Assembly (NCBI GenBank): GCA_019090895.1
Contig: JAHRVB010000051.1
Span: 28,220-92,219 of the forward strand
Direction of reading: 5' to 3'
From: Kangiellaceae bacterium
Lineage (GTDB): Bacteria; Pseudomonadota; Gammaproteobacteria; Enterobacterales; Kangiellaceae
Length of the DNA: 64,000 bases
Position 1 is the stretch's first letter. Each line of letters begins with the position of its first letter. The notes below the pieces were generated by a model. That model saw only the letters and a program-made list of their open reading frames with translations. It made no database searches and had not been told where the DNA came from. Both the position numbers and the translations under genes were made by a program. This document shows positions 29,076-63,954 of this stretch, one piece after another.

Positions 29076-29111
29076 TGCTATCCCTGTCTTCCTATTAAAA
29101 AACACATTAGA

Positions 29112-29142: not shown

Positions 29143-29175
29143 CTTCAAACTGGAAACAAAATTATTAAGTACGAC

Positions 29176-29475: not shown

Positions 29476-29485
29476 GAGTTTTAGC

Positions 29486-40572: not shown

Positions 40573-40600
40573 ATTACTATTCTCTTCCAATTCTGAATTG

Positions 40601-41224: not shown

Positions 41225-41225
41225 T

Positions 41226-41627: not shown

Positions 41628-41810
41628 AATTATACGGTCCCGATAATTTTTTATATTCTTAAATATTAAGGGCTGTGACCCAATATTGCTTCTACACTCC
41701 CTCGCCAAAATGCGATGAAGTGAGAAGAACTAACTAAGCAGTTTACTGTTCCGATAATATAGACTAGTACAATAAACTACTTGGTAAATAAAAGGTCCAA
41801 CTTTAAGATT

Positions 41811-42335: not shown

Positions 42336-42338
42336 GAA

Positions 42339-44989: not shown

Positions 44990-46922
44990 CTAAAGATGTT
45001 TACTCAAAAATTCTAATGTTCTGTGGTAAAAATCTATTCTATTATTCTCATTACTAAAGCCGTGTCCTTCGGACCGTTTAAATAACCACTCGAAGGGCAT
45101 ATTCCGATTCTCAAGTGCCTCTTTCAATAAATAGGCTTGTTCTGGAGGAGCTCTTCTATCTTTGCCACTGTGAACAATAAACACAGGTATTTTCAATTTA
45201 CGATATAAGTCAGTGGTGATTCTGCTTTTAACTTAGATTCATCTGCTCCATAAACCTCAGCGGCTTCAACTGAAACGGATCCTTTTTTAGAATAGTCAGC
45301 GGTTTTTTCTTGTTTTACTGCATCATATACACCCGCAGCCGTAACACTACACTTGAATAATTCTGGTTCAACCAGTGGCGCCATTACCGCAAAGTAACCT
45401 CCAAAACTCCATCCCATGATACAAACGTTGGCATCGCTAGTATCCGGTTGAGCGAGAGCCCATTTCGCTCCATCGATGATGTCGTGTTGTGTTAAGGTAC
45501 TACGCTTTTTATACTCAATTTCTTTGTAGTCGAGTCCATAACCTCCGGATCCCCTGTAATTAACTTGAAGTACCGCGTAACCATTATTAGCCAACATTTG
45601 GAAGTATTTTCAAACCACCAATGATCTCTTGGTCCGTAAGGCCCGCCGTGAACTTTGGTTACTAGGGGAGCCTTTTGAATATTTTTGGGTAACGTTAGGT
45701 AGCCGTAAATTGTCGTTCCGCCTCGAGAAGTGAACTAAATAGGCTTTCTCTTGGACATCTTATTGGGGTCAATCCAAGCTTTTCTGCTTAACAAATAACT
45801 AGCTGAATTAGTTTCATTATCGAACAGATAAAAATCTCCCGGATTTTTATCACTCATCATCAATACAACTAACTCTTTTCCATCAGCCGTCTGTGAGGTT
45901 ATTGTTACATCGCTCCCAAGAAATGTTTGCGCCAATTTCTTATGTGTTTTAGCAAAAGGGGCATCAGGTTCAAAGTAATGATTTTCAATTAATCCAGGCA
46001 TAACCTGCAATCCGACGGTTGAAGAATTCACATAAGGAGGTTTAATAAAGCTGAGTATATCCGCTTGGTTACGAACAAATCGTTTGCGCATACTCTTTTT
46101 TTGAATATTGTATTCGAATAACGCCTGGGTCTTTCTACCTAGAGAAGTTGTAACATAAAGTATTGTTTCATCGTGGTTAAGTGATGCGGGATCGAAGTTT
46201 ATCAATGGATTATCTTTTTCAATTTCAGTTCATATCTTATTTTCATAATAAAACTCTTTCTAGACACCACGAGCATCACGTCCACTTTCGATAAATGGCA
46301 GCCCTTGTTTTGTTAGCACTATATCCATTAACCCGAAAGGTGTTTTGCTTATCAATCGTTTTTTTGAATTATTAATATTAAGTTTCAATAGTCGAACTGG
46401 TGAATCTACTTTTTGTTCGAAGCTTCGAGCTTCTAAGACAATATGCTCTGGGTCATCTGGCAATAAATGAAGAATTCGGCCCCAGGCCCTCTCAGAACCT
46501 TGACTACGATTAAGCCTTGTTCCTTTCGTATTTTTACCACCAAAAATAATACTTTTCCAAGAGCCGTCAATATTTCCGGCGAATATTTGTCCCATAGTTG
46601 TGGGTGCCTCTCTATATTCCCTTCTAATATATCTGGTAAATACAAGTCTATAGTTATTGGCCCAATAATATTGATCCATATGTTCATCTTTTAGAAAACG
46701 GAACGCGTGAATACTTTTCATCGATGCGCGATTAATAACGACAAGCATTGTTTGATCACCGTAAGGTACTTCAGCGGCGTAGTGTTTTCCGTCCGGTGAG
46801 AGTTTGATACTTTTGTACTGTGTTTCTTTAGAAAAATTTTCGAGTGGCTCAGGAACCGAAATTATTGGGAGGGCAAGTGTAATTAAAATACAACCAAAAA
46901 TTAGAGTTGTTAGATAACGCAT
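44990..46922 (-). pseudogene. Broken S9 family (acylaminoacyl/dipeptidyl) peptidase gene
   Basis: Translating the minus strand in all frames gives one S9-family peptidase in pieces. A signal peptide and propeller part run from 46922 to an in-frame TAG at 46260. After it the same frame continues through a TGA (YYENKI-stop-TEIEKDN; a Trp would be expected) and resumes at 46205. Another TAG sits at 45735, then 'TSRGGTTIYGYLTLP' and 'HGGPYGPRDHWW' continue. A frameshift near 45600 leads into 'LANNGYAVLQVNYRGSGG', and a second near 45195 into 'IPVFIVHSGKDRRAPPEQ'. Catalytic motifs survive: GWSFGGY (Ser), GKDRRAP (Asp), GHGF (His). Three stops and two shifts mean no functional enzyme unless there are sequencing errors. 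Confidence 0.9.
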
Positions 46923-47072: not shown

Positions 47073-50000
47073 TTATTTAATATATCTTCTTCTAAAGAAC
47101 AAAGGGATACCTAACAATAAAATAAGAAGATTCAAACTACCGACACCTTCATTCGCTTCTTTACCAGTAATAGTTATGGTGACTTCATCGGACGATGTGA
47201 ATTCGCCGTCAGAGACTTCAACACTAAAGGTATAAGAACCGTTTGACGCATCACTCAAGTTAAAGAACGCATCGATCGCACCGCTGGCGTGTATTGTAAC
47301 TGGTACACCTGCAGTTTGAGTCCATACGTAAGACATAACATCTTCGTCAATGTCTAGAGTTGCACTGGCAGACAACCTTATCTGACTAGGCGCATCAGCT
47401 CGATCGTAAGTGATGTCATCTCCAGCGTTCGCAGTCGGGCCGACATTAACTAATTCAACAGGCGACGCCCTGAATAACATATCTTCAGTACCGACCATAT
47501 CTGATTCAATTGAAACCATTGGAGCGGCATCTTGACCAAGATAATCTGCAGTAGGAACCACACTGAAAGTTACTTCGTAGGCTAGCGGAGGTGCATTGTA
47601 GTTGTAACAAAGCTGAACACCAGGTTCTATCATAGAACTAGCATCGGTTCCGATAGTACCGTCCGCATTTTCAACACCTGCCGTACCATCGTCTAAATCG
47701 CCAATTTGAGATGAGGCATATGACACTACGAATTCATAATCGTCTTCCTGAAGAGAATTGAAGGCAAAGAGACCAAAACTTAACCGCTCTGAATCTTGTC
47801 CCCACCCTTGAACTTCATCGTAATCCAAGTAAGTAAATTCACCACCTGCTGCAGCTCTAATACCCCGAGTTACATCATCAACAATCTCCATATCTTTCCA
47901 TAAAAGCGCAATCATGTCATTTGGTTCTGCGAGATTAGGTAAAGATGTATTAGCCCAAGGAGCTCCTCCTGGTGTACCGGAGAATATAACAAACCCATCG
48001 TCTGTGAATGTCATTCCTTCTGTTCTATCGGAACCGTAAAATGGGAATATTCTATCGCCCCACAACGTCCATGCCGCAGTGTCACCAGAGACTCCAAGAG
48101 TACCAAACCCTAAACCTTCAAGGGATAAATATCCTCCAAATCCAGCGTTCGCGCATGAAGTACTAGTTGCACTACTATCTACTGTGTAAAGCGGTTTTAG
48201 TCCCGGCGCGCTAATGTTCCAAAAGAACCCTTCTCCCGTTGCTGGAGTCAATAGTATCGAAAGCTCTCCAGTGTCGGAAGCATTTGGACTTGCATAGTTT
48301 TGAACGACCGCACGCCATCTACCTTCGGCAGGTGATGCTACAGTCAGAATTTCATTAGTAGCTCCAGTTGCACCATTGAATCCAAGTTGATTCACGAAAT
48401 TAACACCGTCTGCCGCATACTCAATGAATAAATCATTGTCCGGAGAAGTTGCTTCTGAGATAGCAATATTCATACTTACAATTGCACTCGGAACGTCAAA
48501 TTCGAAAACATGTACGCCGTCGGTTATATCGTCCGTGTATGAACTGTTATCAGAGTCGGGTCCCATGTCAAAACTATCTTCAAAATTGACAGGTTCTGCA
48601 TTAGGGTTTTTGACTGTTAGATTACCTCCAGTCACAACCACTGAACCTTCAACCAATGACATGTTGCTAGGCATATCTATTGAAGCTGAATATTCGACAT
48701 CTTGATTATAAACGGTAGGAGTTAAAGAAATTGTGTAGTCAATTTGCTCACCACGTGCAACAGATGTCTGAATTGCTGAAGAAGAAACATCATCTACAAC
48801 TCTGTCCAAAGTAGCTCGAAAAGTACCCAGTTCGGTCGTACCAGCATTAACAGTAACATCTGCGTAGTAAGAGTCACCTGGAACCATTGCGATATTCCAA
48901 ACCAATTTAATATCAACTAAACCATCAGCAGCCAATGGTGCATCAACTGATAAACCGGCTACAGGATCTGTTTGCGGAGTAATACTGACCGTTAGATTTC
49001 CTGTGTCCAAAGCGCCAGGAGCACTCGCCAGATAATTTTGAACCACCACAAGATAGGCACCTTCAACAGGAGCATCTATAGTTGCAACTTCATTTGTTGC
49101 AAAACTAGCAACTTGGGCAACAACAGAGTTATACGTTCCATCACCATTTGTATCCATCAAAATATATAGATCGTTATCTTGAGAAGTTGAATCAGCAATA
49201 GCAGCCGTCAATGAAACAGAATTAGCCGGTACTACAAACGGGAAAGTAAAGACTTCTTCAAAATTATCAATAGGGTTGTGATCACTACTTGGGTCTTCAA
49301 GAATACTGAATTCGACAGTTTCATTAAAGCCCACTGCGTTTGCGTCATATAAACCGTCAATACTAAAATTCAAGTTATCTGTAGGAAGCGATTGAACACC
49401 AGAAACAGCCCAAGAACCGTCGTCACGACCTGCTACCATATTAATTTCATCTGGCACAGCTCCATTGTTGACCAAAGCATGAACAGGCAGATGAAGTTCA
49501 GGTTGACCAGACGCGTTTATTAAAACACTTTCATATACATTACTTCCGGTATTGTCGCCAGTTACGTCCAAAGTAAACGTAACGCTAGAACTCTCACCAA
49601 CAAGAAGTTCCAACGACGAAGGCTCCATTGTCAACGTTGTAGCACTTGAGGTCACTGTATAGGTACCATCTCTTACGGCTGTGAAAGTTCTTGTCCAAGA
49701 ACAAGAAGCCGCACAAGAAAAGTTTGCCATACTTGGAACATTTAGAGTCTTAGGGTCTCCGCCATCGGCAGGATTCGCTGACTCATAATTTAGTTGTGAT
49801 TCAGACATCACCAGTCCTGCATTGATAGCCATATCAACTTGGACTCTTCCCGCTCCCATGTCATAAGAGTCAGCAGCCGTTAAACCATCTTCCTTTAACA
49901 TAGAGTCAGTTGAAGTCATCATTAGAGCAGAACGTATCTGATCTGGGTTCCAACTCGGGTGTGCCTGCGTCATTAACGCCGCAGCTCCAGCCACATGTGG

Positions 50001-51998
50001 TGAAGCCATCGATGTCCCCTGCAGAAAAGCAAAGTCTTGAGGTGCCCCACCCGTTTCATCGTTGAAGGGTTGGTCGTCAGAATATGCCGCATAAATACTA
50101 ACTCCAGGAGCAGCGATTTGCGGTGTAATCATCTCACCAAATTGGTTCGGTCCACGTGAAGAGAAACTGGCAATTTGATCGGCAGTATTAGTGTCTCTTT
50201 GCAATGTTTCGGCTGTAATGGTCGCTTGATGAGCCGTTCCGGTTGATAACCATGTTTTCAAGATATCGCCGTCATCGGCACTTATATGAACACCAGGAAC
50301 TTCATAATAATCATCGCCTAATGTATCAGCTCCACCTTGAATATTAGCCAAAACAAACCCGCCTGCGCCGCCAGAAGCCGCATTTGCAGCTTTCGCAACT
50401 CTTGCTATATCTCCTCGATCACAAACAACAATTTGCGTTGCCGTAAACGTTCCACCAGGAAACGGCTCTAAACATTGAGCAGAATCTCCATCTGGGTCAT
50501 TTGGGTTGGCAAAATCACCGGCATAAACGATATCTCCAGTAAATGCCCCATTGATTCCACTACCTGAAATATCCGCTGGCGCTGCTGTATCTCCACCAGA
50601 GAAAGCGCCTACTGATTTATTTCCAACAGAAGAAATTCTGTCATTGCCATGATTGGCTGCTGCAACTGAAGTATACCAAGGGGACACTTTTGTCGTTGAA
50701 CCAGCGCCTGGACCTGAGTTTCCAGCAGATGTAGCAACGAAAATTCCGGCAGCCTGGGCTCCTAGGAATCCAAGTTCAATACTGCTATTCCATGGAGAAA
50801 AAGGAGTAGTTCCGCCGATAGAATAGTTAATAACGTCAACGTCATCAACTATCGCTTCTTCAATTGCGGCAAGTGTAGCTGAAAATGCGCAGCCTGCATG
50901 AGTATCGCCAGTATTACCTGGGTCACAAATTTGATAAGCAATTATATTCGCATGAGGTGCAACACCGGACATACTGGGGAAAGTGTAAGATGTTGATATT
51001 CCATCGTCAGTGTTACCCGCGAGTAAATCATTGATTACATACGGTACATTTTCTAGAGCATTACCACCTGCGGTACTTGCTGTATGTGATCCGTGTCCAT
51101 TGTAATCTTGCCCATTGGCCGGCCGTTGATCTTCAACAGCAAAAATTGCATCTGTGTAATTATCGGTGATTTCGGGATAGCTCCGAACACCTATCAATTT
51201 AGAATTACACAATGTTGCGTCAGCGACACAATCACCAACGTAAGTGTCATCTCCCCATGGATTTACAACGGTATATCCGTCATCTCCAGTGGCAGAAAAT
51301 GAACGGTGATCTGTGTTAATACCAGTATCCAAAATACCAATGATAATACCTTCACCTTTGAACTCTGCACTTCCAGCAGTTCCGTCCCACACATCATTAG
51401 CACCAATTAACAATGGCCCAGTATCTGTATTTAGAGGAACTCTCAGATCTTGCTCAATAAATGCAACTTCTTTCATTTGTCCGATTGCTTTAGCTTGCTC
51501 AAAGCTCACTTCGGTTACGAAACCATTTATCGCATATTTGTAAGTTCTCAGAGTTGGAATTTTAATACCCAATTTGGCAGTCACTTCTGTAACAAATGAA
51601 GTCTGTTTATTTTCTAAATATGACGCATAATTTCTAGATTGTTTACTTTTAGCGTCAAAAACGGAATTAGATAGTCCACTTTTTCTAGCGGAAGAATTTG
51701 TCTTCTCATAACCGACAATTCCACCTTTGTAGGATGAAACAGGATCGTCAATTAAACGGACTATGTATCTCTTTTTCCCAGTATGTTGATGTTTATCGAA
51801 ATATTTGGTTTGACTAATTTTGTCTTGTACGGTGCTGAATCTCTTTATTTGTTTGTACTCTACTGCTTTTAAATTAGAGACTGAAGCGCTTTTAGCACTA
51901 GCAAGCTCTTTAAGCATTCCTTCTTGCGTCACTGCGGAGGCTCCTGCACAAAAGCCTCCGGCCATCATAATGGCGGTTACAATTGATTTAATTTTCAT
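47073..51998 (-). CDS. Giant secreted S8 (subtilisin-like) serine protease with sorting tail
   Basis: This is a 1641-aa exported protease. After the signal peptide, an inhibitor-I9-like propeptide (about 60-160) is followed by the S8 domain: 'GIIIGILDTGINTDHRSF' (Asp), 'DYNGHGSHTASTAGG' (His) and 'FLQGTSMASPHVAGAAAL' (Ser). A PA-like insertion ('GDFANPNDPDGDSAQCLEPF') sits between His and Ser. The remaining 900 residues are Ig-like and pre-peptidase-type domains, then a PKD/REJ-like domain ('GDDITYDRADAP') and a C-terminal hydrophobic, Arg-ending tail (GVGSLNLLILLL...FFRRR), GlyGly-CTERM-like. The start at ATG 51998 has GGAGAAATATA upstream. It may supply peptides for the flanking receptors. 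Confidence 0.93.
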   Translation of the reverse strand: MKIKSIVTAIMMAGGFCAGASAVTQEGMLKELASAKSASVSNLKAVEYKQIKRFSTVQDKISQTKYFDKHQHTGKKRYIVRLIDDPVSSYKGGIVGYEKTNSSARKSGLSNSVFDAKSKQSRNYASYLENKQTSFVTEVTAKLGIKIPTLRTYKYAINGFVTEVSFEQAKAIGQMKEVAFIEQDLRVPLNTDTGPLLIGANDVWDGTAGSAEFKGEGIIIGILDTGINTDHRSFSATGDDGYTVVNPWGDDTYVGDCVADATLCNSKLIGVRSYPEITDNYTDAIFAVEDQRPANGQDYNGHGSHTASTAGGNALENVPYVINDLLAGNTDDGISTSYTFPSMSGVAPHANIIAYQICDPGNTGDTHAGCAFSATLAAIEEAIVDDVDVINYSIGGTTPFSPWNSSIELGFLGAQAAGIFVATSAGNSGPGAGSTTKVSPWYTSVAAANHGNDRISSVGNKSVGAFSGGDTAAPADISGSGINGAFTGDIVYAGDFANPNDPDGDSAQCLEPFPGGTFTATQIVVCDRGDIARVAKAANAASGGAGGFVLANIQGGADTLGDDYYEVPGVHISADDGDILKTWLSTGTAHQATITAETLQRDTNTADQIASFSSRGPNQFGEMITPQIAAPGVSIYAAYSDDQPFNDETGGAPQDFAFLQGTSMASPHVAGAAALMTQAHPSWNPDQIRSALMMTSTDSMLKEDGLTAADSYDMGAGRVQVDMAINAGLVMSESQLNYESANPADGGDPKTLNVPSMANFSCAASCSWTRTFTAVRDGTYTVTSSATTLTMEPSSLELLVGESSSVTFTLDVTGDNTGSNVYESVLINASGQPELHLPVHALVNNGAVPDEINMVAGRDDGSWAVSGVQSLPTDNLNFSIDGLYDANAVGFNETVEFSILEDPSSDHNPIDNFEEVFTFPFVVPANSVSLTAAIADSTSQDNDLYILMDTNGDGTYNSVVAQVASFATNEVATIDAPVEGAYLVVVQNYLASAPGALDTGNLTVSITPQTDPVAGLSVDAPLAADGLVDIKLVWNIAMVPGDSYYADVTVNAGTTELGTFRATLDRVVDDVSSSAIQTSVARGEQIDYTISLTPTVYNQDVEYSASIDMPSNMSLVEGSVVVTGGNLTVKNPNAEPVNFEDSFDMGPDSDNSSYTDDITDGVHVFEFDVPSAIVSMNIAISEATSPDNDLFIEYAADGVNFVNQLGFNGATGATNEILTVASPAEGRWRAVVQNYASPNASDTGELSILLTPATGEGFFWNISAPGLKPLYTVDSSATSTSCANAGFGGYLSLEGLGFGTLGVSGDTAAWTLWGDRIFPFYGSDRTEGMTFTDDGFVIFSGTPGGAPWANTSLPNLAEPNDMIALLWKDMEIVDDVTRGIRAAAGGEFTYLDYDEVQGWGQDSERLSFGLFAFNSLQEDDYEFVVSYASSQIGDLDDGTAGVENADGTIGTDASSMIEPGVQLCYNYNAPPLAYEVTFSVVPTADYLGQDAAPMVSIESDMVGTEDMLFRASPVELVNVGPTANAGDDITYDRADAPSQIRLSASATLDIDEDVMSYVWTQTAGVPVTIHASGAIDAFFNLSDASNGSYTFSVEVSDGEFTSSDEVTITITGKEANEGVGSLNLLILLLGIPLFFRRRYIK

Positions 51999-52081
51999 TA
52001 TATTTCTCCAATAGATATTAACAACAAGTGACGCCAACAATTTAATAATATGTTGGCGTCAAATTCAATTTATGAATTGGC

Positions 52082-55000
52082 TTAGAACTTATGTTCAACA
52101 CTAAATGAATAGTATGTGCCTATGTTGTCGTAAATCGCAGAGCCAGTTCCAGTTCCGAAGAAAGGAAACGGAGGTAACTCATCAGTAACGTTATTAATAA
52201 TTAACTGAAAGGTCGTGTCTTCTTCATAAACGTAGCTAGCACCGATATCCCAGAACATCTTCGAATCTAAATAAAGTGTGTCTGTAGAATCAGGGTTAGG
52301 ATCCGTTTCATCAAAGATAGTTTCCTGCTCGCCATTCAATTGCTCATCAATGTAATGACCACTTGCGAAAACATTCCATTCGTCAATTTCCCAATTAACA
52401 TTGAATATATATTCTAACTCTGGAGTTCCAACTTCACCTTTTTGAGGATCCGTATTATCAGCAGTGTTAAGTATTAAAGTACGCTCATCTAAATAAGAAC
52501 CACCTAATCCAAAACTCAACTTACCCATATCTTCCAAGTCATAGGAATAGTCGATTTCAAAGTCATAGCCTTTAGAAATCAATGTATTCAAGTTAACAGG
52601 TGAAGACCGGATAAATGAAACGTTATACTCGTTTGAAGGGTCTCGGTCGTTTAATGAACAAAACTGGTTGTTTATGCCATTCGGATCATCGACACATCTA
52701 TTCAAAATCGCTTGTGCACCAGTATTGGCTATTGCTTGAGTAATTTCGATATCGTAATAATCTATAGAGATATTAAGATTTTCTAACCAATCAGGAGAAT
52801 AAACGAATCCGAAGGTTGAAGTTCTTGATTCTTCGCCTGTTAGTTCTGCATTACCACCCGATGAACCGACAACTGTAACTGCGTCATTAGCTAACCAATA
52901 ATCAGTTTCAACTTCCGGAGTTGCAGGATTATCGCCATAAACAACGCCAAGAGCCGCACAGTTCGCCATTCGATTAGCTATTCCATTTGTTGCTAAATCG
53001 ATGTTATCTGTTTCACATGGATCGCCAATTCCGAAGAAGTTTTGCCCCGCTGGATCGAATAACTCACTTATGTTTGGCGCTCTTAGAGATTTACCGCCTG
53101 ACGCTCTAAAGGTCAACTCTTCGTTGATTTCCCAGTTTAATCGAGCTTCCCATGTAGTGAAACTTCCGATTGTTGAGTAATCAGAACTTCTAGCGGCCAT
53201 TTCTAAAGTTAAATCTTGAACGAGAAATACATCTCTAACTAAAGGTATCGACATTTCAGCAAAGAAATCGCTTGCTTGGTAGCTTCCGCGACTGACAGAC
53301 AAATTATTGAAGAATGTAAGATCTAAGCCTGAAGCGGTATCTTCCTCTCCGCCAGAACGTTCTTCTCTGAATTCTGCACCAGCAACAAAGCCAACATCAC
53401 CTGCCCATGTGCTGAATAAATTATCAGTAGAAACATAACCAGCAGCTTGAGTTTGTTGTAGCTCAAATTGTCCAATAGCAGTTTGCGAGAACCAATCAAT
53501 TGCTTCTTGACTTGGTGAACCATACCCAAACAAGTTTACAGGAACACAACCAGCATTAGCATAGCTAGATTGTCCAGTTGAACCTGCGGTGAGCGCTTCT
53601 TGTAACACAGAACGACAAACCACATCTCCGACACTAACTGAAGCTAATTCATCTCGAGACGGAGCTGCAGATGCAGCAATAGCATCGATGTCGCCTTGGC
53701 TTAATCTTACTGCGTCTGTAGCATTAAAAAACCTTTCATCTATTCGGTTGTTAAAGTTCTTACGTACAATGTTTGTACTACCATAATTAACGTATGCATC
53801 CCATTCCCAATCTTCATTAATGAATCCCTGAGCACCAACAACAATTCGGAATGTATCACGTTCATCAACTTCCATTCGTCGACCGAAATCGGTATGGAAT
53901 CTTCTCAAGCTAAATCCTGTACCACCAGTCAAAGCAGAAACTGTTGGGTCGATATAGGCATTATCAGCAGCAATTGAAATAGGTACACCAAAATCAAACG
54001 ATGGCTGACCTTGCTGATTAGATTCGACTGACGCAAATCGAGTATCAACGTATAGTTCTGTTTCATCCGTCAAGTTATAACGGAAATTGGCATCGACCGA
54101 AAATCGAGAAAAACCAACTTGAAGGTCATTAAAAGTCGAAAGGTCTAATGGTGTACAGCCTTGGCCAGCACACCTAATTCCGTCAACATATTCGACATTA
54201 TTCAAGTCCAGTAATGAATATGTACCGTCTGAGTTGAAGCGACCATTTATGCCAGGAATCGTTCCTGCGTCAGAAATTAAGTAATGTCCTTGATTAGGAA
54301 CAGTAATTCTATCTGGAATACCATCATCAATTTGAATACCATCAACAATAGTATCGCCATCTAATGGATTAGGAACAGTGCCCCACTTTTCTGTAAAGCG
54401 ACCACCCCGTTCTGCTGCTGTCAACTCGTCTTGGTTATCGTATGAAACAGCGAAAGTCACATGACCTTTATTATCAGAGAAATTAGTTCCCGCTAAAAAG
54501 CTCGCTCCGTGGCGTTCAAACCCACTATCATTTGCAGTACCGGAATAAACGCGTATTTCACTTCCTTCAATGTCTTTCTTCATTATGAAATTGACAACAC
54601 CTGTTACCGCATCAGCTCCATACACTGCTGCGTTAGCGCCAGTGATGATTTCAACTCTTTCAATCATAATTGCTGGAATACTATTTACATCAACGGAACC
54701 TGAACCAGATGAACCCGCAACATGACGGCGACCATCAATCAAAACAAGAGTTCTAGCAGTACCTAACCCTCTTAAATCTAGCAAGCCGACACCCGAAGTA
54801 CCAATGCTGCTACCTGAATTTTGAGATGTGAATGTAGAATCAAGTTGCGGAAGATTAGCAAGTATATCTCCTAGTGCAGAAACACCAGAACGCTCAATCT
54901 GCTCTGCATTAATAACAGTTACTGGAGAAGGAGACTCAAATCCTTCACGCCGAATACGAGAGCCTGTTACTATGACTCTATTTTGTTCCGTAGCTTCTTC

Positions 55001-55114
55001 GTCTTGTTCTGCTGCATAAACAGTAGGCGCTGATACCGCCGAAATTGTCGCAGTTGCGAACAAAGCAGCTCGAATAGCAACCGCGATAGGGCTGCGCTTA
55101 TTTAAATTATTCAA
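52082..55114 (-). CDS. TonB-dependent outer-membrane receptor 1
   Basis: This 1010-aa receptor takes up a specific substrate with energy from TonB. Signal peptide, then a TonB-box-like region 'NRVIVTGSRIRREGFESPSPVTVI', a plug at about 60-180 ('LGDILANLPQLDSTFTSQNSGSS', 'LRGLGTARTLVLIDGRR', 'GANAAVYGADAVTGVVNF'), and a barrel ending with 'YYSFSVEHKF', a final aromatic. It belongs to the large TBDT class common in marine bacteria; the ligand is not identifiable. The start is TTG at 55114, with GGGAGAAG 6 bases upstream, and it is preceded by a mini-ORF leader. It lies downstream (in map) of the tandem sulfotransferases. Confidence 0.95.
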   Translation of the reverse strand: MNNLNKRSPIAVAIRAALFATATISAVSAPTVYAAEQDEEATEQNRVIVTGSRIRREGFESPSPVTVINAEQIERSGVSALGDILANLPQLDSTFTSQNSGSSIGTSGVGLLDLRGLGTARTLVLIDGRRHVAGSSGSGSVDVNSIPAIMIERVEIITGANAAVYGADAVTGVVNFIMKKDIEGSEIRVYSGTANDSGFERHGASFLAGTNFSDNKGHVTFAVSYDNQDELTAAERGGRFTEKWGTVPNPLDGDTIVDGIQIDDGIPDRITVPNQGHYLISDAGTIPGINGRFNSDGTYSLLDLNNVEYVDGIRCAGQGCTPLDLSTFNDLQVGFSRFSVDANFRYNLTDETELYVDTRFASVESNQQGQPSFDFGVPISIAADNAYIDPTVSALTGGTGFSLRRFHTDFGRRMEVDERDTFRIVVGAQGFINEDWEWDAYVNYGSTNIVRKNFNNRIDERFFNATDAVRLSQGDIDAIAASAAPSRDELASVSVGDVVCRSVLQEALTAGSTGQSSYANAGCVPVNLFGYGSPSQEAIDWFSQTAIGQFELQQTQAAGYVSTDNLFSTWAGDVGFVAGAEFREERSGGEEDTASGLDLTFFNNLSVSRGSYQASDFFAEMSIPLVRDVFLVQDLTLEMAARSSDYSTIGSFTTWEARLNWEINEELTFRASGGKSLRAPNISELFDPAGQNFFGIGDPCETDNIDLATNGIANRMANCAALGVVYGDNPATPEVETDYWLANDAVTVVGSSGGNAELTGEESRTSTFGFVYSPDWLENLNISIDYYDIEITQAIANTGAQAILNRCVDDPNGINNQFCSLNDRDPSNEYNVSFIRSSPVNLNTLISKGYDFEIDYSYDLEDMGKLSFGLGGSYLDERTLILNTADNTDPQKGEVGTPELEYIFNVNWEIDEWNVFASGHYIDEQLNGEQETIFDETDPNPDSTDTLYLDSKMFWDIGASYVYEEDTTFQLIINNVTDELPPFPFFGTGTGSAIYDNIGTYYSFSVEHKF

Positions 55115-55136
55115 TTGTCTTCTCCCAGTTTGTCAT
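55107..55136 (-). promoter_or_regulatory. Conserved leader mini-ORF before receptor 1
   Basis: The sequence CCTCTATGACAAAC leads a 9-codon ORF (ATG at 55136) that ends in TAA inside the first codons of the receptor gene. The same CCTCYATGACAA block with a short ORF occurs before receptor 2. Translational coupling or regulation by start occlusion is possible, not shown. Confidence 0.35.
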
Positions 55137-55722
55137 AGAGGACGTGTTAGTTTTTTGCTTAGCTACTCGTTATATTCGAGCAATCCTGCAAACTTTCTAT
55201 TAGGACTTAATCAGCAGCCGCGAGCCGCCTAATAAGCATGTACTATCAACCCAAATGATATCCTGAATGAAATAATGAATGGAAGCTTAAGAAATGTGAA
55301 TATGAACACGTTTATGATCTTTACTTATGAACCGGATAGAACGATAATAATCGGTTTTTGATAATTTGTTACGTCTACAGAATAGTGTTTGATAACTAAT
55401 AGATTTTGTTCGGATTTAAATGCGTTTACTTGCAATTTCAAGTAGTTAGGTGTAACTGCCTGATTTAGCGATATGAATTGCGAAACTTTTGAAGTGAAAG
55501 GCGCTGTGTCACTTTTACAATTTTGATTTGAATTTTTCTGTCAAAAATATCATTTTTAGAGAAAGAAACACCAGTTAGATGGCACAAATTTTGGCGATTT
55601 TACCCGCTTCAACGAAATTATTCGTAGTTCAATTCAAAAACAGTCAGAAAACAAACTTATGACTTTCAAACTAGCTAGTGTTAACTTCTGAGAAAGAAAA
55701 CTAAGAAGCCGATCTATAAAGA
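55115..55722. other. Intergenic region between receptor 1 and the sulfotransferases, with a stem-loop
   Basis: No gene is seen in these 608 bases. TATTAGG (55198-55204) and CCTAATA (55228-55234) form a 7-bp stem around a 23-base loop that is GC-rich (contains GCCGCGAGCCGC), unlike the AT-rich surroundings. On the minus strand it lies about 85-115 bases before the receptor start, a possible leader RNA structure. Confidence 0.4.
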
Positions 55723-57300
55723 TCAGCGCTCTATATCGATGCCAGCAGCTTCGAGGTAGTTTTTTAATGGTTGTAGTTCATCATGAAAATACTTCCACTT
55801 CCCTACCGACCTTGTATGAACTTTCTCTCGTACCTGCAAAGTGCTTGCTGTCGCACTTGATGCAGGGTTCTTTTCAAATTCCAAACAGCTTTGTTCGAAT
55901 TCAAGTCCGAGTTTCTCCAAAACCGTCCGTGTATTAACCTCTTGGTCTGCAACTAAAGACTCATAGTCTAGCTCTATTATTCGATCGCCCAAAATTGTCT
56001 GCCAGTGTTTTCGCAAATGGTCTTGCGCAACGTAATATCGACCTAGATTATCTAAAGAATATGCGAATTTGAAAAATGATTGTTTAAACATTGCAAAGCA
56101 TGCGTCCATCGGGTTCCGTCTAAGATAGACTATTTTTGCATTCGGAAAAGCTTTGGCAATGAAACCAAGATATAAGAAATTATAAGGAAACTTATCGATA
56201 AAGAGCGGTTTGTTAGTCAGCCGATATTCCACAGAGACCATATACTTTTCTGCTATTAGATTAATATCTGCGATAGAGGCGCTCTCAATAATTGATTCAG
56301 TTACTTCATTAATCCCACCCACGCCAGATGCATGGCGAATAGCCAATTGCATAAAGAATGTTTCGTCGGCACTTTCCACCTGCGAATGGTTCGATATGAT
56401 CCGTTCCGTTAAAGTGGTTCCTGTTCGTGGTAGCCCTACGATGAATATCGGAGTTTTTGTCCCTTCTTTAGTATTTAGTTGATTTGTGCTTGGCTCAATC
56501 CAATCTTGAGTACAAATACTCTTAATCTTTTCGATGACTTTAATATCGTTAGCGACATCGTAGTTCGCAGTACTCAGCACCGCATTACCCGCTTTTTCGT
56601 ATAACTGAAAAGACTCTTTCCATTGACCCAAATCTTCTAATTCTTTGCCGATTGCGTAATACATGAATATGTTTTTGTTCGGAGGATACTTTGTATCCTC
56701 TAGGACTTCTTGCATCTGCTCTATGTGTTCGTGATCTTTTGCTTTCGCAAGTTTGGATAGTTCGTAATGGTATTGTTGATGCTGAGGGTACTTGCTAAGT
56801 AAAGCTTGATATAAGTCTTTAGCTTCTTTCGCTTTTCCCAAGAGCACACTGTTTGCAGCTAGATTTGCTCGGAACACATCAATATCTGGCTGAAGTTCAT
56901 TTGCCTGTTTATATAACGACCAAGCTCTCTGGTGCAGACCAAGTGCCGATAAAATACGAGCAGTCATATCCAGATAAAGAGGGCTGTTATTTAAGTATTT
57001 CTCATATTTATCGATTAGCTCAAACGCTTCATTATGACGTAATAATATCAAATAAGAATTGGATAATTCTATGGCAGCATCATAGCGCGAAGTCTCAAGA
57101 CTAAGCGCATGAGAAAATGCCTTTACGGCTAAATCTACTCGCCGAGCGTTCTTGTGAACCAACCCCGACAGAAAATGCCCCTCAGGTTCTTCGTTATACT
57201 GATGTTGAATCTCTTGAGCAAATAAACCGACTCTTCGCCAGTCTCTTTTTTGCACGGCAATTCTAGCTTGGTGACTCAACTGGGCCAAATTAGCATTCAC
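55723..57300 (-). CDS. TPR-containing sulfotransferase 1
   Basis: This is a 525-aa protein. Residues about 1-270 are tetratricopeptide repeats ('RYDAAIELSNSYLILLRHNEAFELIDKYEKYL', 'AWSLYKQANELQPDIDVFRANL'). Residues about 275-525 are a PAPS-dependent sulfotransferase: 'TPIFIVGLPRTGTTLTERII' is the 5'-phosphosulfate loop and 'VYLRRNPMDACFAMFKQ' the 3'-phosphate-binding segment. TPR-sulfotransferases occur beside TonB-dependent receptor genes and resemble tyrosylprotein sulfotransferase-like enzymes; the substrate is unknown. The start is a GTG at 57300 with GGAAGGA upstream. It is a close paralogue of the next gene. Confidence 0.9.
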   Translation of the reverse strand: MNANLAQLSHQARIAVQKRDWRRVGLFAQEIQHQYNEEPEGHFLSGLVHKNARRVDLAVKAFSHALSLETSRYDAAIELSNSYLILLRHNEAFELIDKYEKYLNNSPLYLDMTARILSALGLHQRAWSLYKQANELQPDIDVFRANLAANSVLLGKAKEAKDLYQALLSKYPQHQQYHYELSKLAKAKDHEHIEQMQEVLEDTKYPPNKNIFMYYAIGKELEDLGQWKESFQLYEKAGNAVLSTANYDVANDIKVIEKIKSICTQDWIEPSTNQLNTKEGTKTPIFIVGLPRTGTTLTERIISNHSQVESADETFFMQLAIRHASGVGGINEVTESIIESASIADINLIAEKYMVSVEYRLTNKPLFIDKFPYNFLYLGFIAKAFPNAKIVYLRRNPMDACFAMFKQSFFKFAYSLDNLGRYYVAQDHLRKHWQTILGDRIIELDYESLVADQEVNTRTVLEKLGLEFEQSCLEFEKNPASSATASTLQVREKVHTRSVGKWKYFHDELQPLKNYLEAAGIDIER

Positions 57301-57350
57301 CTAAAAGGTCCTTCCAGTAAAAATCATACAACAAGCTATTTATAATTGTT

Positions 57351-58928
57351 CTAGTCAAGTTTAATACCCGCGTTTTCCAGATGTTCCTTCAATGGCTGCA
57401 GCTCTTCACTAAATCGTTGCCATTTATTAATCGACCGGCTGTGTGTTTTTTCACGGATTTGAACTGAACTAGCTGTCGCACTAGGTGCGGTATTTTTGTC
57501 AAAATCTAAACAAGCACCTTCGAAATCTAATCCAAGCTTGTCTAGCAATAAACGTGTTTCATTTTCAGTATCAGACACAAGTGTCTCATATTCAACTTCA
57601 ATCAAACGGTCTTTAAGAACGTCTCGCCAGTGGTTTCTCAAGCGATTATAAGCAACATAATATTGCCCTAAGCTTTCAAGTGAATATGAAAATTTGTAAG
57701 CCCAAGTGAAAACCTGCTTAAACATTGAAAAACAAGCATCCATCGGATTTCTACCGAGATGAATAATGCGCGCGTTTGGCCAGGCTTTTGCTATAAAGCC
57801 AAGAAATAGAAAATTAAAAGGAAGTTTGTCGATAAAAAACGTCTCATCACCAAGCCTATAACTTACGCTCTCCAAATATCCACTCGCAATCTTGTCCGGG
57901 TCAATCTGCGCGAGAGCCTCAATCATTTCTGCATTCATATTTTCAACGCTTTGAATGTTACTTTCTTTACGCAGAACCATTTGTAAGAACTGTGTTTCCC
58001 CGACTGTTTCAACCTTCGAATGACTGGATACTATCCGTTCAGTGAGCGTAGTTCCTGTACGAGGCAAGCCAACGATAAAAATAGGCGTTTTCGTCTTATT
58101 AGAATCAGTGGATTTATTTGACGGTTGCTTTAGCCAGCTTTCATCGCAAATCTCTATGATTTTATCAATAAGAGTGATGTCATCCTCAATGTTATATTTT
58201 GCTACTGAGCAAACGGCATCTCCACCTTTCTTATAATACTTGAATGATTCTTGCCAGTTTTCTAGGTCTTCTAATTCCTTACCTAGTGCATAGTGCATAA
58301 AAATATTTTTGTCTTCAGAAGCATTTGATTTAGATAAGATATCCTTCATCGCATTGATATGGATCTGATCTTTTGCTCTTCCAAGCCGAGCCAGCTGATA
58401 GTGATTTCTTTGATGATTCGGAAATCGATTAAGCAGTGATTGATATAGTTTTTTCGACTCCTCAATTTTTCCCAGGAATACACCACAAGCGGCTAAATTG
58501 GCTTGAAAAAGATCAACACCTGGTTGTAATTTATGTGCTTTATTATATAAAGGCCATGCCTTCTGTGGCATTCCAATATCGGTATATACAGTGCCAGCCA
58601 AGTCCAAATACATAGGGCTGTTAGACAATTTATCTTCATATTTAATAAGCAACTCAGCAGCTTCTGCATTCCGCCTTGCTATAGAGTATTGGTTTGCCAA
58701 CTCAACAGCTGCATCATACCGACTTTCATCCAGCTTCAAAGCGCGTTCAAATGCTTGTGCGGCCTTAATAGGGCTTCTTGATACACGTTCAACCAAGCCC
58801 TGCAAGAAAAAACCTTCTGCGCTCTCTCGATCCTCTTTGATAATAGTCCGAGAAAATGCGGCTACGGTTTGCCAATCTTGATCCCTTACTGCTTTTCTGG
58901 CCATTTGGCTCATCTGAGTAATATTCAT
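57351..58928 (-). CDS. TPR-containing sulfotransferase 2
   Basis: This 525-aa paralogue of sulfotransferase 1 has the same layout and length. N-terminal TPRs ('RYDAAVELANQYSIARRNAEAAELLIKYEDKL', 'AWPLYNKAHKLQPGVDLFQANLA') are followed by the sulfotransferase domain with 'TPIFIVGLPRTGTTLTERIV' and 'IIHLGRNPMDACFSMFKQ'. Visible differences are a three-residue stretch in 'QVFTWAYKFSYSL' against 'QSFFKFAYSL' and Arg to Gly before 'RNPMD'. The two genes are tandem duplicates 50 bases apart, co-directional, transcribed away from the methyltransferase. Confidence 0.9.
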   Translation of the reverse strand: MNITQMSQMARKAVRDQDWQTVAAFSRTIIKEDRESAEGFFLQGLVERVSRSPIKAAQAFERALKLDESRYDAAVELANQYSIARRNAEAAELLIKYEDKLSNSPMYLDLAGTVYTDIGMPQKAWPLYNKAHKLQPGVDLFQANLAACGVFLGKIEESKKLYQSLLNRFPNHQRNHYQLARLGRAKDQIHINAMKDILSKSNASEDKNIFMHYALGKELEDLENWQESFKYYKKGGDAVCSVAKYNIEDDITLIDKIIEICDESWLKQPSNKSTDSNKTKTPIFIVGLPRTGTTLTERIVSSHSKVETVGETQFLQMVLRKESNIQSVENMNAEMIEALAQIDPDKIASGYLESVSYRLGDETFFIDKLPFNFLFLGFIAKAWPNARIIHLGRNPMDACFSMFKQVFTWAYKFSYSLESLGQYYVAYNRLRNHWRDVLKDRLIEVEYETLVSDTENETRLLLDKLGLDFEGACLDFDKNTAPSATASSVQIREKTHSRSINKWQRFSEELQPLKEHLENAGIKLD

Positions 58929-59171
58929 GTTGATTTTTCGAACCTTATAAACGGTAACTAAATAATGGTTACGAGTATTATTACAGTAATTTTACTCAAA
59001 AGCATTAATAGACTTCGACGTTTGCTATCGAGGTAAGAAATACTTAAACCTATTTTCGAATCTGCATTGGACAACGATTATACAAGCGCAAAACTGGCAC
59101 TCATTTATAGGTCAGTTTTAAAATAGCCTTGTGGCTGATATAATCGAATTTTGAATAAATAGCTGTTACTC

Positions 59172-60146
59172 ATGCAAAATACTCCATCGAACGATACTTC
59201 AACAGTAGAAAGTTGGGACACTTATTGGAGAGGTGCATCTTCTACTGATGCATTTTCTAGTGACGGAGTTAATCATCCGGCTATTCCTGCCTTTTGGCAG
59301 TATTTTTTTGGTCTTTGCAACCAAGATGAGAGCGTATTAAAGCTTATCGATATCGCATGCGGTAATGGTTCAGTCATAGAGTGCGCCTCTCAATTTTTCA
59401 ACCACGACAAAATCCAATTAAGTGCTCTTGATATCTCAGCGGCAGCGATAAAAAACCTTAAACAAAAGTTTCCTTTTGTAAAAGGTATTGTTTCCGATGC
59501 CAATAACATCGCACTGGATACTGAAAGTTACGACATAGTAACTAGTCAGTTTGGAGTGGAGTACGCGGGCCTTTCAGCTATTCTCGAAACAAGTAGACTC
59601 GTGACAAAGGGAGGGAAATTGGGTCTGTTATTTCACATAAGAGATGGCAGTATTCATCAAGAATGCGAGCAAAATAAAAACGCCATAAACTCAGTCATTA
59701 ACTCTCGATTTGTACCATTGGCATTGAGGTTATTTAAAAACGGATTCGCAGCAATGCAAGGTGCAGATCGTTCAGCCTATGAAAGTGCAGCTCGAGAATT
59801 AGCGCCAGCAATTAAGGAATTAGAATCAATTATGACAGAGTATGGCCTACACATCGCTGGAGATACCGTCTCGCGCTTATACAACGATGTAGACAAAATA
59901 CATAAGAAAATACAACACTACAATCCTGATGATGTATTTGCTTGGCTTGAGTCGATGGAAAATGAACTCCCCGACTATTTGGAACGAATGAAATCGATGG
60001 TTAAATCGAGTCTCACAATAGTCAATTTCGAGACCATCAAAGATGAACTAGAGAAGGAGGGATTTGTATTAGAAATCGCTGATAAATTCTTCGCTCCCAA
60101 TCAGAAATCACCTTTAGCATGGGTCCTTATTGCAAATAAACAGTAA
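59172..60146 (+). CDS. SAM-dependent methyltransferase
   Basis: This is a 324-aa cytoplasmic class I methyltransferase. Motif I is 'LKLIDIACGNGSVIECA' at about 63-80, the acidic strand end is 'LSALDIS', and 'SYDIVTSQFGVEYAG' matches motif II. The C-terminal about 170 residues are helical with no recognised domain. The substrate is unknown; it is not a close match to UbiE or other core pathways by eye. It is divergent from sulfotransferase 2 (243 bases) and followed after 76 bases by the oxygenase, suggesting they act together. Confidence 0.85.
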   Translation: MQNTPSNDTSTVESWDTYWRGASSTDAFSSDGVNHPAIPAFWQYFFGLCNQDESVLKLIDIACGNGSVIECASQFFNHDKIQLSALDISAAAIKNLKQKFPFVKGIVSDANNIALDTESYDIVTSQFGVEYAGLSAILETSRLVTKGGKLGLLFHIRDGSIHQECEQNKNAINSVINSRFVPLALRLFKNGFAAMQGADRSAYESAARELAPAIKELESIMTEYGLHIAGDTVSRLYNDVDKIHKKIQHYNPDDVFAWLESMENELPDYLERMKSMVKSSLTIVNFETIKDELEKEGFVLEIADKFFAPNQKSPLAWVLIANKQ

Positions 60147-60222
60147 TACTTGGTTCCATCACATTAGGTCTCTAATTTAACCAAACTTTTAACCGTGTAG
60201 TTTTTGGCATATAGGAACACAA

Positions 60223-60939
60223 ATGCTCAACAAAAATCATGATAAAACTACTTTAAGTGAACTATTTTCTTTTGACAAGAGGATCGCTGTCGAAAAATTT
60301 TTCGATACAGAAGTAGCAGAACGAATTCATAACGCTTGTAAAACTAGCATTCCTTTCAGTACCCATTATGTGCTTGATGAGAAGTATCAGAGTAAAACCA
60401 AACATGAAATAGTTTCAATGGGTAAGAAAGAAGCACAAGAAACATTTAAGAAAATATCGGAAGCAGCAGCGAAGGGAGTCGGTTTTCTTTATGAAGGTTA
60501 TCTACAAAGCAGAGCAAATAGAACACCTCTCGACATTGGAGATACAGAATTAAATTTTGCACATGAAGTGTTCGAGTATTTTAGTAGTAGTGAGGTTGTT
60601 AAATTAATAAAAGAAATAACCGGTGACAATAGTATTGTGGGTGCAGAACCTCAGTTTACGCGATATACAAAAGGTCACTTTTTAACTCGGCATTTAGATA
60701 TAGTACCGAATGGTAAAAGAAAATATGCATTTGTTCTTGGATTGACCAAAAATTGGCACCCTGATTGGGGTGGTCTACTGCAATTTTACGAACAGAATGG
60801 AACACCGCGGGATGCTTGGTCACCTAAGTTTAATGTTCTGTCACTGTTTGAAGTATCGCATGTTCATGCTGTTACCTATGTGACTCCGTTTGCTGTTGAA
60901 CCTCGTTTATCTCTTACAGGTTGGTTTGTCTCCAATTAA
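60223..60939 (+). CDS. 2-oxoglutarate/Fe(II)-dependent oxygenase (prolyl hydroxylase-like)
   Basis: This 238-aa protein carries the facial-triad pattern. 'RYTKGHFLTRHLDIV' gives H157-x-D159, the distal His is in 'SHVHAVTYV' (213 or 215), and R228 in 'VEPRLSLTGWF' would bind 2-oxoglutarate; 'RLSLTGWF' is typical of the Tpa1/Ofd1-type prolyl hydroxylase group. Thus it probably hydroxylates a protein or peptide. Placed with a methyltransferase and two sulfotransferases between two TonB receptors, it looks part of a modification cassette. AGGAA precedes the ATG at 60223. Confidence 0.88.
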   Translation: MLNKNHDKTTLSELFSFDKRIAVEKFFDTEVAERIHNACKTSIPFSTHYVLDEKYQSKTKHEIVSMGKKEAQETFKKISEAAAKGVGFLYEGYLQSRANRTPLDIGDTELNFAHEVFEYFSSSEVVKLIKEITGDNSIVGAEPQFTRYTKGHFLTRHLDIVPNGKRKYAFVLGLTKNWHPDWGGLLQFYEQNGTPRDAWSPKFNVLSLFEVSHVHAVTYVTPFAVEPRLSLTGWFVSN

Positions 60940-61000
60940 GAGTATATTTAAACTTTAGACGAATCGTTTCTAAATTTGTTAAATATAATTTTAAGTAATA

Positions 61001-61028
61001 AAAAAGGCCGCTAAAGCGGCCTTTTTTT
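61001..61028. terminator. Bidirectional intrinsic terminator
   Basis: GGCCGC-TAAA-GCGGCC makes a 6-bp GC stem flanked by A5 and T7. It lies between the convergent oxygenase gene and receptor 2 gene and serves both. Confidence 0.9.
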
Positions 61029-61053
61029 ATGCATCTAAGAATTATCTAAAATT

Positions 61054-63954
61054 CTAAAAAGTCCATTTTAGACGCATATAATAACCCTGACCAAACATAC
61101 GATATGTTGAAGGATCAGTTTTACCATTAAAGCCAATATCAATGAAAGGAGGCTCTTCATCAGTAATATTAGTAATACCACCAGAAAGAACTAAGTTAGT
61201 ATCTCCACCAAATGAATAACTACCGACTAAATCGTGATACAAATACGAATCAGTTTGCTGTTGGTAATCAGAGAACCAAATATCACTCTCTAGCCCACTG
61301 ATGTATTCACCAAGATAGCTAATAGAGATGTTATCCAGCGTCCACTGAAAAGAGATGTTCGCTTTGTCTTCAGCAAAAGAAGCACCTTCAAATCTGCCAA
61401 CAAAATCAGAAATACCAGCGCCTTCAAACTGCTCTTGTTCACGTTCTAGCAAGTGAGTCCAAAGAACAGATGCACTTAGTTGACCGATTTCTGATGGGTA
61501 GTTCCATTTGAACTCAAAATCTACACCAGCAGCTGTTTCAGTAGCTACGTTTAATTGAGCATCAATGATACTTGTGATTGCATAATTTGAATCACGAGTG
61601 ATCAATGCACATGCGCCCGCAACTTGCTCTTGATAACACTGGTTAAGCGTAGTCTGAACACCCAAAGAACCAATTCCGTCTTCTAAATTGATTTTCCAGT
61701 AATCAGCAATAACTGTAAATTGGTGCTCACCAAATTCTGGATTCCAAACAACACCTGCAGTAAACGTGTCGCCATGTTCAGCCTCTAGGAATGGGTTACC
61801 ACCAACTTTCGCATTTACTTGGCTATCAAGCTGTGTACTGTCCGAAGCACAACCAACCGCAGCGCTGCCGTTATTAGCTGGTTGAGTAGGGTCACAAGGA
61901 TCAGTGTAAGTTGGGAAACTATCTACCTGCCCACCAAACAAATCACCGATAGTAGGTGCACGGAATACTGTACCGTATGTTGCTCGAAGTTTTAACTCTT
62001 CTAATGGTGTATATTCAACACCTACTTGATAAGTAGTATCAGAACCAAATTGATCCCAATCATCAAAACGTACACCACCTTTTAAAACCAAGCTCTCTAA
62101 AACAGGTGCATAAAATTCGCCATAATAAGCGCTGTTACTAAGTGAACCAAATGTACTAGCTCCAACATTTCCTGTTACGGCACCAATCGTCTTAGCTGAA
62201 TCAAGAATGTTTGCTAGTTCTTGTTTCCAGTATGAGTAACCGACAGACCAACCAAATTCTCCACCCGGTAATTCGAATGCTATACCGGTTAAGTTTGCAC
62301 TTAAAGTTGTTTGATCCGAATTATTTACATCAACAGTATCTAGAGATACATAATCAAGCATTTCTTGAGTTAATGTCGTTACAACTGGATTACCACCTGC
62401 ATCAACAGAACCACCACCAAATAAGTTTAATGGTACACATCCAGCGATTAGTGTATCGGGATTTGTGATATCTGCGTAACACTCAGGGGATCCATCACCA
62501 TCTAAATCAGCAGAAGGTCCCAATGCATTAAACAAACGAGAACCAGCAAACTGTCCAAAATCTTGACTTGTGACACTACGATGTCCTTGACCGTAGGCAA
62601 CATCCCAACTCATGTCATCATTGATTTCTCCGTCTAGTGCCATGTTCCACTGGTATTGTGTAACTTCTTGCTCAAAACGTCGATTTGTTTCAATCATACG
62701 ACGGCGAGGATTAATGACGGGCTCATAGACCAATGCCGTTCCATTCGCTGCATTATATGCATCTACCGCACGACGTAAATAATAGTTATCTTGTGAGATA
62801 CCAGTAAACGCCACAGTTCCAACAGGTAAACCAGTATCTGCATCTATACTTGGATCATCATAAAAACCATTAAACATTGGGTCGCCGCCAGTAAATGGTA
62901 ATGGAGCGAGTTGCTGCGCTGAACTACGTTGATTAGCTCGAAACTCTGCACTAAAGTTAATTGTATCGGTTAGCTCAAAGTTAGACTCAGCAAAGATGTT
63001 AGTTCTTTCATAAGGAGTCTGCATATAGTTAACTGGTGCGTAATTATATGTTCGACCGTCATGGGCTTCCATTAGTCCAACTTCATTAGGAGTAGTTGCT
63101 GGCGTTCCAACAAGGAATAATCCTTGACTATAAAACGGTAAACGACTTTCTGGAATTCTTGACGAACCTATCGGATAACAACCACCTTGTGCAGTTCCAT
63201 CGTAAGCGTCTGCAACTTGTGCTTCACAGCCATCAGGATAGATGTAATAAGAGTCTTGCATGAAATCCCAAGGTGTATCACGTTGGAAGGCTTCTTCTTG
63301 AGTAACGAATTCAGCGCCAAATACAAAGTTTCCTCGGTCAAAATCTTGTCCAGCAATAATAGAGAATGAATCTTGGCCTCCACCATCGGTGTTATTCCAG
63401 TTTGCTGTTTGAGCACTTAACTCTACACCACTAAAATCTTTACGAGTGATAATGTTTACAACACCAGCTACAGCATCTGCTCCATATATTGCAGAAGCAC
63501 CATCTTTTAGTATTTCAACATTTTCAATCATCGCTGAAGGAATCGCTTGATAGTCACCGCCATCAACGACACGTTTACCATTAACGAGCGTTAAAGTTCT
63601 TGCTGTACCCATGCCGCGTAAATCGATAAGTACTGCACCGTTACCGCCATTATTGGTAGTTGTTCCGATTGGAGAACCTGACATTGAAGGGATGCTTTGA
63701 AGAAGGTCCCCGACATCAGTTAAGCCACTCAACTCTAAGTCAGCACGTGTAAGTATCGTTACTGGACTTGCAGTTTCAATATCAGTTCTCTTGATACGTG
63801 AACCGGTAATAGTGACACGATTAGTGTCTTCTTCTTCTTCTGTTGCTTCTTCTGCGTATACTACAGATGGCAATGACACCGCCATTGCAGCACTCACTAG
63901 CAAAGCACTACGGACCGCTTTCGCAAGCGGATTGCGTTTGTTTAATTTACTCAA
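61054..63954 (-). CDS. TonB-dependent outer-membrane receptor 2
   Basis: This 966-aa receptor is of the same class as receptor 1: shared 'LNKR-P-A-A-R-AL' signal start, acidic stretch, TonB-box-like 'NRVTITGSRIKRTDIETASPVTI', plug ('LRGMGTARTLTLVNGKR', 'GASAIYGADAVAGVVN') at about 50-170, and a barrel ending 'GYYMRLKWTF'. Ligand unknown; the two receptors have different loops, so they likely take up different molecules. The start is TTG at 63954, 8 bases after AGGAG. It is the right end of the receptor-flanked cassette. Confidence 0.95.
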   Translation of the reverse strand: MSKLNKRNPLAKAVRSALLVSAAMAVSLPSVVYAEEATEEEEDTNRVTITGSRIKRTDIETASPVTILTRADLELSGLTDVGDLLQSIPSMSGSPIGTTTNNGGNGAVLIDLRGMGTARTLTLVNGKRVVDGGDYQAIPSAMIENVEILKDGASAIYGADAVAGVVNIITRKDFSGVELSAQTANWNNTDGGGQDSFSIIAGQDFDRGNFVFGAEFVTQEEAFQRDTPWDFMQDSYYIYPDGCEAQVADAYDGTAQGGCYPIGSSRIPESRLPFYSQGLFLVGTPATTPNEVGLMEAHDGRTYNYAPVNYMQTPYERTNIFAESNFELTDTINFSAEFRANQRSSAQQLAPLPFTGGDPMFNGFYDDPSIDADTGLPVGTVAFTGISQDNYYLRRAVDAYNAANGTALVYEPVINPRRRMIETNRRFEQEVTQYQWNMALDGEINDDMSWDVAYGQGHRSVTSQDFGQFAGSRLFNALGPSADLDGDGSPECYADITNPDTLIAGCVPLNLFGGGSVDAGGNPVVTTLTQEMLDYVSLDTVDVNNSDQTTLSANLTGIAFELPGGEFGWSVGYSYWKQELANILDSAKTIGAVTGNVGASTFGSLSNSAYYGEFYAPVLESLVLKGGVRFDDWDQFGSDTTYQVGVEYTPLEELKLRATYGTVFRAPTIGDLFGGQVDSFPTYTDPCDPTQPANNGSAAVGCASDSTQLDSQVNAKVGGNPFLEAEHGDTFTAGVVWNPEFGEHQFTVIADYWKINLEDGIGSLGVQTTLNQCYQEQVAGACALITRDSNYAITSIIDAQLNVATETAAGVDFEFKWNYPSEIGQLSASVLWTHLLEREQEQFEGAGISDFVGRFEGASFAEDKANISFQWTLDNISISYLGEYISGLESDIWFSDYQQQTDSYLYHDLVGSYSFGGDTNLVLSGGITNITDEEPPFIDIGFNGKTDPSTYRMFGQGYYMRLKWTF

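Follow-up and report, generated by a model that had tools for sequence, protein, structure and literature searches.

We describe here a cassette of predicted protein-modifying enzymes that accompanies a TonB-dependent receptor (TBDR) in a Kangiellaceae genome. Its conserved core consists of the receptor TBDR2, the oxygenase OXY, the methyltransferase MT, and the sulfotransferases ST1 and ST2, in the order TBDR2-OXY-MT|ST1-ST2, together with a TonB2 system, and is found across distant MAGs. The pairing of a receptor with a sulfotransferase recurs more widely, in Alpha- and Gammaproteobacteria. These are known families in an arrangement that, as far as could be seen, is undescribed, as is its likely target. 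A literature search, with preprints and most subscription journals outside its reach, found no account of the receptor-sulfotransferase pairing, and a Sutterella paper concerns a different sulfotransferase family, ASST.

Gene content of the locus

The window (the whole 64,000-nucleotide stretch that was analyzed) carries the cassette at its right side, with the contig ending just past TBDR2, at the window end. The six genes named in the earlier note are all intact frames of the families it assigned, by open reading frames and Pfam. Three lie together on the minus strand: the receptor TBDR1 (52082-55114; 1,010 aa, plug and barrel domains by Pfam), ST2 (55723-57300; TPR plus Sulfotransfer_3, PF13469, E 8e-44), and its paralogue ST1 (57351-58928; TPR plus TPST-like sulfotransferase, PF13469, E 9e-46). 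These are followed on the plus strand by MT (59172-60146; class I SAM methyltransferase, Methyltransf_11) and OXY (60223-60939; 2OG-Fe(II) oxygenase resembling protein prolyl hydroxylases, 2OG-FeII_Oxy_4, PF13661, E 2e-23), and again on the minus strand by the class B receptor TBDR2 (61054-63954; 966 aa, plug and barrel by Pfam). Promoter and terminator counts in the window are the same as in shuffled sequence; a terminator-like stem directly after ST2 (55727-55708) may mark the end of an ST1-ST2 operon. An anti-phage defense reading was discarded, as the PADLOC matches are to generic domains only.

The giant S8 protease previously placed beside the cassette is present at 47073-52040 (minus strand), a subtilase of 1,655 aa with Peptidase_S8, PA, and PKD domains and, by eye, a GlyGly-CTERM-like tail. 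Its nearest relatives (51% and 49% identity) adjoin TBDR2-type receptors and MT in two genomes, G002 and G009, and the stretches fetched from these genomes contain neither a sulfotransferase nor OXY. At about 44990-46922 (minus strand) lies a pseudogene of the S9 prolyl-oligopeptidase type, with in-frame stops and two frame changes relative to intact S9 relatives in tblastn. The S9 gene of another cassette (L074, 10910-12440) is likewise in pieces beside intact enzymes.

A complete TonB2-type system lies at 39277-44515, all on the minus strand. It comprises a TtpB-like DUF3450 protein (43730-44515; PF11932, 2.7e-76), a TtpC-like MotA/TolQ/ExbB protein (42339-43730; identified by sequence and by an order as in TonB2 operons), and ExbB (41811-42335), ExbD (41226-41708), and TonB (40601-41224), each identified by sequence, order, and homologues. 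The sixth gene encodes a TPR-type protein (39277-40746; placed by order and homologues), assigned as TtpD by its position and TPR-like sequence only. The same six genes, TtpB-TtpC-ExbB-ExbD-TonB-TtpD, occur in the same order in the TonB2 system of Vibrio vulnificus, whose TtpB2 is a DUF3450 protein (PMC6957404). The Vibrio system serves siderophore uptake, whereas that of the window adjoins a protease, receptors, and modifying enzymes.

Relationships of the modifying enzymes

ST1 and ST2 share 52% identity on alignment. When the catalytic half of ST1 alone was compared with the PDB, protein-tyrosine sulfotransferases occupied ranks 1 to 7 (best E 3.5e-10), followed by a polyketide-synthase sulfotransferase (E 0.0056); the TPR half is nearest O-GlcNAc transferase (OGT) and consensus TPR proteins. 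The AlphaFold model of ST1 (pLDDT 93) matches the TPRs of OGT and SPINDLY as well as TPST1/2, the latter with a TM score of about 0.65 to 0.70, normalized by target length. Residues R290, E311, K368, R393, and S487 are invariant among 35 homologues and present in 131 to 135 of 140, a set into which a TPR-sensitive profile also took TPR hydroxylases (e.g., L093 5209), so that at least some of the exceptions arise from these. On the catalytic-domain alignment, we take the first four to be R78, E99, K158, and R184 of TPST2, and S487, matched by eye, is presumably S285. ST1 thus carries the PAPS-binding motifs and the catalytic Arg, Glu, Lys, and Ser (the last by eye) of TPST. An APS kinase is encoded in the window's genome, so PAPS can be made.

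The Sulfotransfer_3 family also contains enzymes that act on small molecules and carbohydrates, and NoeE gave a partial match only (32 bits, against a cutoff of 500). ST1 and ST2 are TPR plus TPST-like proteins, predicted to be directed at proteins. They share the catalytic domain, fold, and catalytic residues of human TPST1/2 and add an OGT-like TPR half. OGT and SPINDLY likewise set a TPR superhelix beside a protein-modifying transferase; theirs is a glycosyltransferase domain, whereas that of ST1 and ST2 is a sulfotransferase. Two proteins of about 1,700 aa in other loci (L163, 1018-6228; L181, 6170-11290) also contain a TPR-sulfotransferase region.

The closest PDB sequences to OXY are PPHD (4iw3 and 4j25; PPHD has been crystallized with EF-Tu) and OGFOD1, and its model (pLDDT 79) matches the folds of Tpa1, PPHD, and PHD2. 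H157, D159, H215, and R228, which supply the HxD...H iron triad and the 2OG-binding Arg, are invariant in seven sequences. OXY shares with PPHD, Tpa1, and OGFOD1 sequence and fold similarity, the HxD...H...R site, and an RLSLTGWF motif; it differs from them in its N-terminal part and in its place in a receptor cassette. By this resemblance to protein prolyl hydroxylases, OXY probably hydroxylates proline. MT has a weak match (E 9e-4) to the plantazolicin methyltransferase BamL. The TPST-like and PPHD/Tpa1/OGFOD1-like relationships support the earlier proposal, made from the letters of the sequence, that sulfotransferases and oxygenase belong to types acting on proteins or peptides, and both kinds of enzyme are tied to the receptor across genomes.

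Conservation of the cassette and of the receptor-sulfotransferase pair

The arrangement in genome G006 (L051, on the same contig as L111) is TBDR2-OXY-MT|ST1-ST2, followed by a TPR/2OG hydroxylase and the TonB2 system. A MAG named Paraglaciecola (L106) has TBDR2-OXY-MT|ST1-ST2 and the TonB2 system, and L108 has TonB2-TBDR2-OXY-x-MT|ST1-ST2, where x is an extra small gene. Partial cassettes occur in L107, L109, and L110, with a further protein, STc. Because the order is kept in L106, L051/L111, and L108, and partly in L107, L109, and L110, the cassette is more than a chance grouping. The G006 copy of TBDR2, beside the intact cassette, shares 70% identity with that of the window, and TBDR2-type receptors are also present in L106, L108, and L110. 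TBDR1 had been taken as the other border of the same cassette; it has no relative at E≤1e-180 among 39 same-family genomes and lies outside the conserved core. The window's genome encodes 48 receptor plugs.

STc belongs to a 350-aa family (L107, 1055-2146; L073, 8064-9098; L074, 8484-9533) for which two scanned members (L074 and L107) gave no Pfam match; by eye, its N-terminal third resembles a sulfotransferase P-loop.

The earlier expectation that the four enzymes would be conserved with the receptors holds in part. Related genomes also carry them separately: only 2 of 40 same-family genomes contain close relatives of ST1, and elsewhere a sulfotransferase stands alone with a TBDR, MT accompanies S8 and TBDR2 without a sulfotransferase, or OXY lies apart. 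What persists is that the parts recombine around the same receptor class, which argues for modules and not for one fixed pathway.

For a wider survey, 80 loci with the sulfotransferases closest to ST1 (one genome per species) and the matches in 40 same-family genomes were annotated with profiles built in this analysis. A TBDR is the immediate neighbor of the sulfotransferase in 47 of the 80 loci, compared with 6 of 335 background genes taken from the same loci at a distance of five genes or more. The fetching profile drew on 12 sulfotransferases, several of them picked beside receptors, and matches were ranked by similarity to ST1, so the 47/80 figure applies to this subfamily. In the same-family sample, a TBDR adjoins 17 of 52 TPR-sulfotransferases and lies within three genes of 24 of 52; distant TPR-sulfotransferases are often far from any TBDR. 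A mirror-tree comparison of sulfotransferases and receptors gave a Spearman correlation of 0.47, reached by 0 of 500 permutations, which is confounded by shared species history and carries little weight.

Two classes of receptor are involved. Class A receptors, of about 800 aa, occur in Pseudoalteromonas, Colwellia, Novosphingobium, Caulobacter, and others. Across 52 class A loci, conservation is confined to receptor and sulfotransferase (the next family reaches 7/52), and 25 of 44 adjacent pairs read TBDR then sulfotransferase on one strand with short gaps. No precursor peptide, transporter, exporter, or biosynthetic gene recurs in these 52 loci, and other modifying enzymes lie beside only 2 of 59 sulfotransferases. 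Class B receptors exceed 870 aa and are the kind found in the window. Among 39 class B entries, about 4 of which are TPR hydroxylases and not sulfotransferases, 24 stand with other modifying enzymes, 17 with a peptidase, and 11 with a TonB2 system. The additional enzymes of related loci include PF13759 and PF13640 2OG oxygenases, an Asp/Asn beta-hydroxylase, radical SAM proteins, a Trp halogenase, other sulfotransferases, and S9, S15, and M3 peptidases. In these loci, TPR repeats join a sulfotransferase, a PF13759 2OG oxygenase, or an Asp/Asn hydroxylase domain, three fusions that suggest a common type of substrate, a protein.

Candidate substrates and competing explanations

Among ORFs of 18 to 110 aa compared in 15 loci, none is conserved, and a blastn comparison of the window with L106, L107, L108, and L051 showed no conserved intergenic DNA, bearing out the earlier remark that no precursor peptide is visible. 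A 150-aa protein of L107, L108, and L110, the one exception among the window, L051, and L106 to L110, and a 170-aa exported protein of L135, L160, and L161 were rejected as the substrate, being unrelated to each other and missing from the window. The small exported family, which adjoins the Asp/Asn hydroxylase of class B loci (L135, 5989-6507; L160, 11576-12082; L161, 11001-11597), is a possible substrate or accessory. Tyrosines in acidic context, the usual TPST motif, are equally frequent in paired and unpaired receptors (0.54 and 0.55 per 100 aa; p 0.88). Total tyrosine is 4.9% in paired and 3.9% in unpaired receptors, a comparison confounded by receptor class and phylogeny.

A unit of two genes, lacking any biosynthetic gene, precursor, exporter, or inner-membrane transporter, is a poor fit for a system that makes or imports a modified molecule and a better one for a receptor or partner protein as substrate. 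We therefore favor, tentatively and with somewhat less than even confidence, the reading that the receptor-linked enzymes modify the receptor, or a partner protein of it, in the cytoplasm before export. The locus would serve outer-membrane uptake, with the TonB2 motor, class B TBDR2, and a large secreted-type S8 protease in this genome, and would itself carry enzymes that modify proteins in the cytoplasm. In ST1 and ST2, the TPR half would hold or read a protein chain while the TPST-like half moves sulfate from PAPS, most likely onto tyrosine; OXY would hydroxylate, probably at proline, and MT would methylate. The most likely substrate would be the receptor or partner while it is still an unfolded cytoplasmic chain awaiting Sec export. 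The chemically altered receptor surface or plug could then affect ligand binding or permit escape from phages or bacteriocins. RaxST has been reported to sulfate its substrate in the cytoplasm before secretion (PMC9372746). Compared by description, this matches the cytoplasmic action before export proposed here, whereas RaxST is paired with a type I secretion system and RaxX, and ST1 and ST2 with TonB receptors. The ORF lists contain no RaxX precursor or type I secretion genes beside ST1 and ST2.

To our knowledge, RaxX is the main documented case of tyrosine sulfation in bacteria. If the favored reading is true, bacterial protein sulfation would be common, as dozens of Alpha- and Gammaproteobacteria have a receptor with a TPST-like enzyme, and it would have its first general substrate class, at the cell surface, where ligands, phages, and bacteriocins are recognized. 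The broad form of the proposal, that TBDRs of these two classes of bacteria are tyrosine-sulfated, and those in class B loci also hydroxylated and methylated, by dedicated neighboring TPR-TPST-type enzymes, is more doubtful; we found no precedent for it.

The enzymes might instead act on a ribosomal peptide whose gene lies elsewhere and which, after secretion, returns through the receptor, as with methanobactin. In methanobactin operons the sulfotransferase MbnS likewise accompanies a TonB-dependent transporter (PMC3621798); the radical SAM, halogenase, and hydroxylase enzymes of related loci are typical tailoring enzymes, and MT weakly resembles the plantazolicin enzyme. The cassette, however, has no precursor, MbnB/C-like enzyme (no Pfam match among its proteins), or exporter, MbnS is a PF00685 protein whereas the cassette enzymes are Sulfotransfer_3 with TPR, the window's closest relatives share with it neither conserved small ORFs nor conserved intergenic DNA, and the class A loci retain only TBDR and sulfotransferase. 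This RiPP-like route appears unlikely.

Nor do we hold it likely that the receptor brings in a peptide or phenolic compound for sulfation, hydroxylation, or methylation by the cytoplasmic enzymes, in catabolism or detoxification. Small-phenol sulfotransferases are common, and the S8, S9, S15, and M3 peptidases of class B loci make peptide use likely. However, no inner-membrane transporter recurs beside the pair, the TPR plus TPST architecture and the prolyl hydroxylase type would be odd for small molecules, and the window's S9 gene is dead while its four enzymes are intact. The earlier proposal of an imported peptide that is then modified is unsupported on the same count, with neither an inner-membrane transporter nor a precursor recurring.

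That the sulfated target is no protein but a surface glycan or lipid cooperating with the receptor is quite improbable: some bacterial sulfotransferases use glycans and NoeE matches in part, but that match is far below its cutoff, the PDB matches are TPSTs, and class A loci show no recurring third family and hence none for glycosyltransferases or LPS genes. That accessory enzymes have loosely gathered beside receptor genes with no common task would suit their separability and patchy orthologues, but an order kept in distant MAGs and an adjacency far above background leave it quite improbable as well.

Two further features of the window were recorded. Gly/Ser-rich, hydrophobic, arginine-rich tails resembling GlyGly-CTERM were recognized by eye on the products of 9311-12649 and 31639-34668, as on the S8 protease (47073-52040), which suggests rhombosortase processing of these three large proteins. 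ORF translations also reveal a Tad/Flp-type pilus cluster at 18412-29767, within which two tandem, very similar Flp pilin genes lie at 29176-29508 and 29486-29767.
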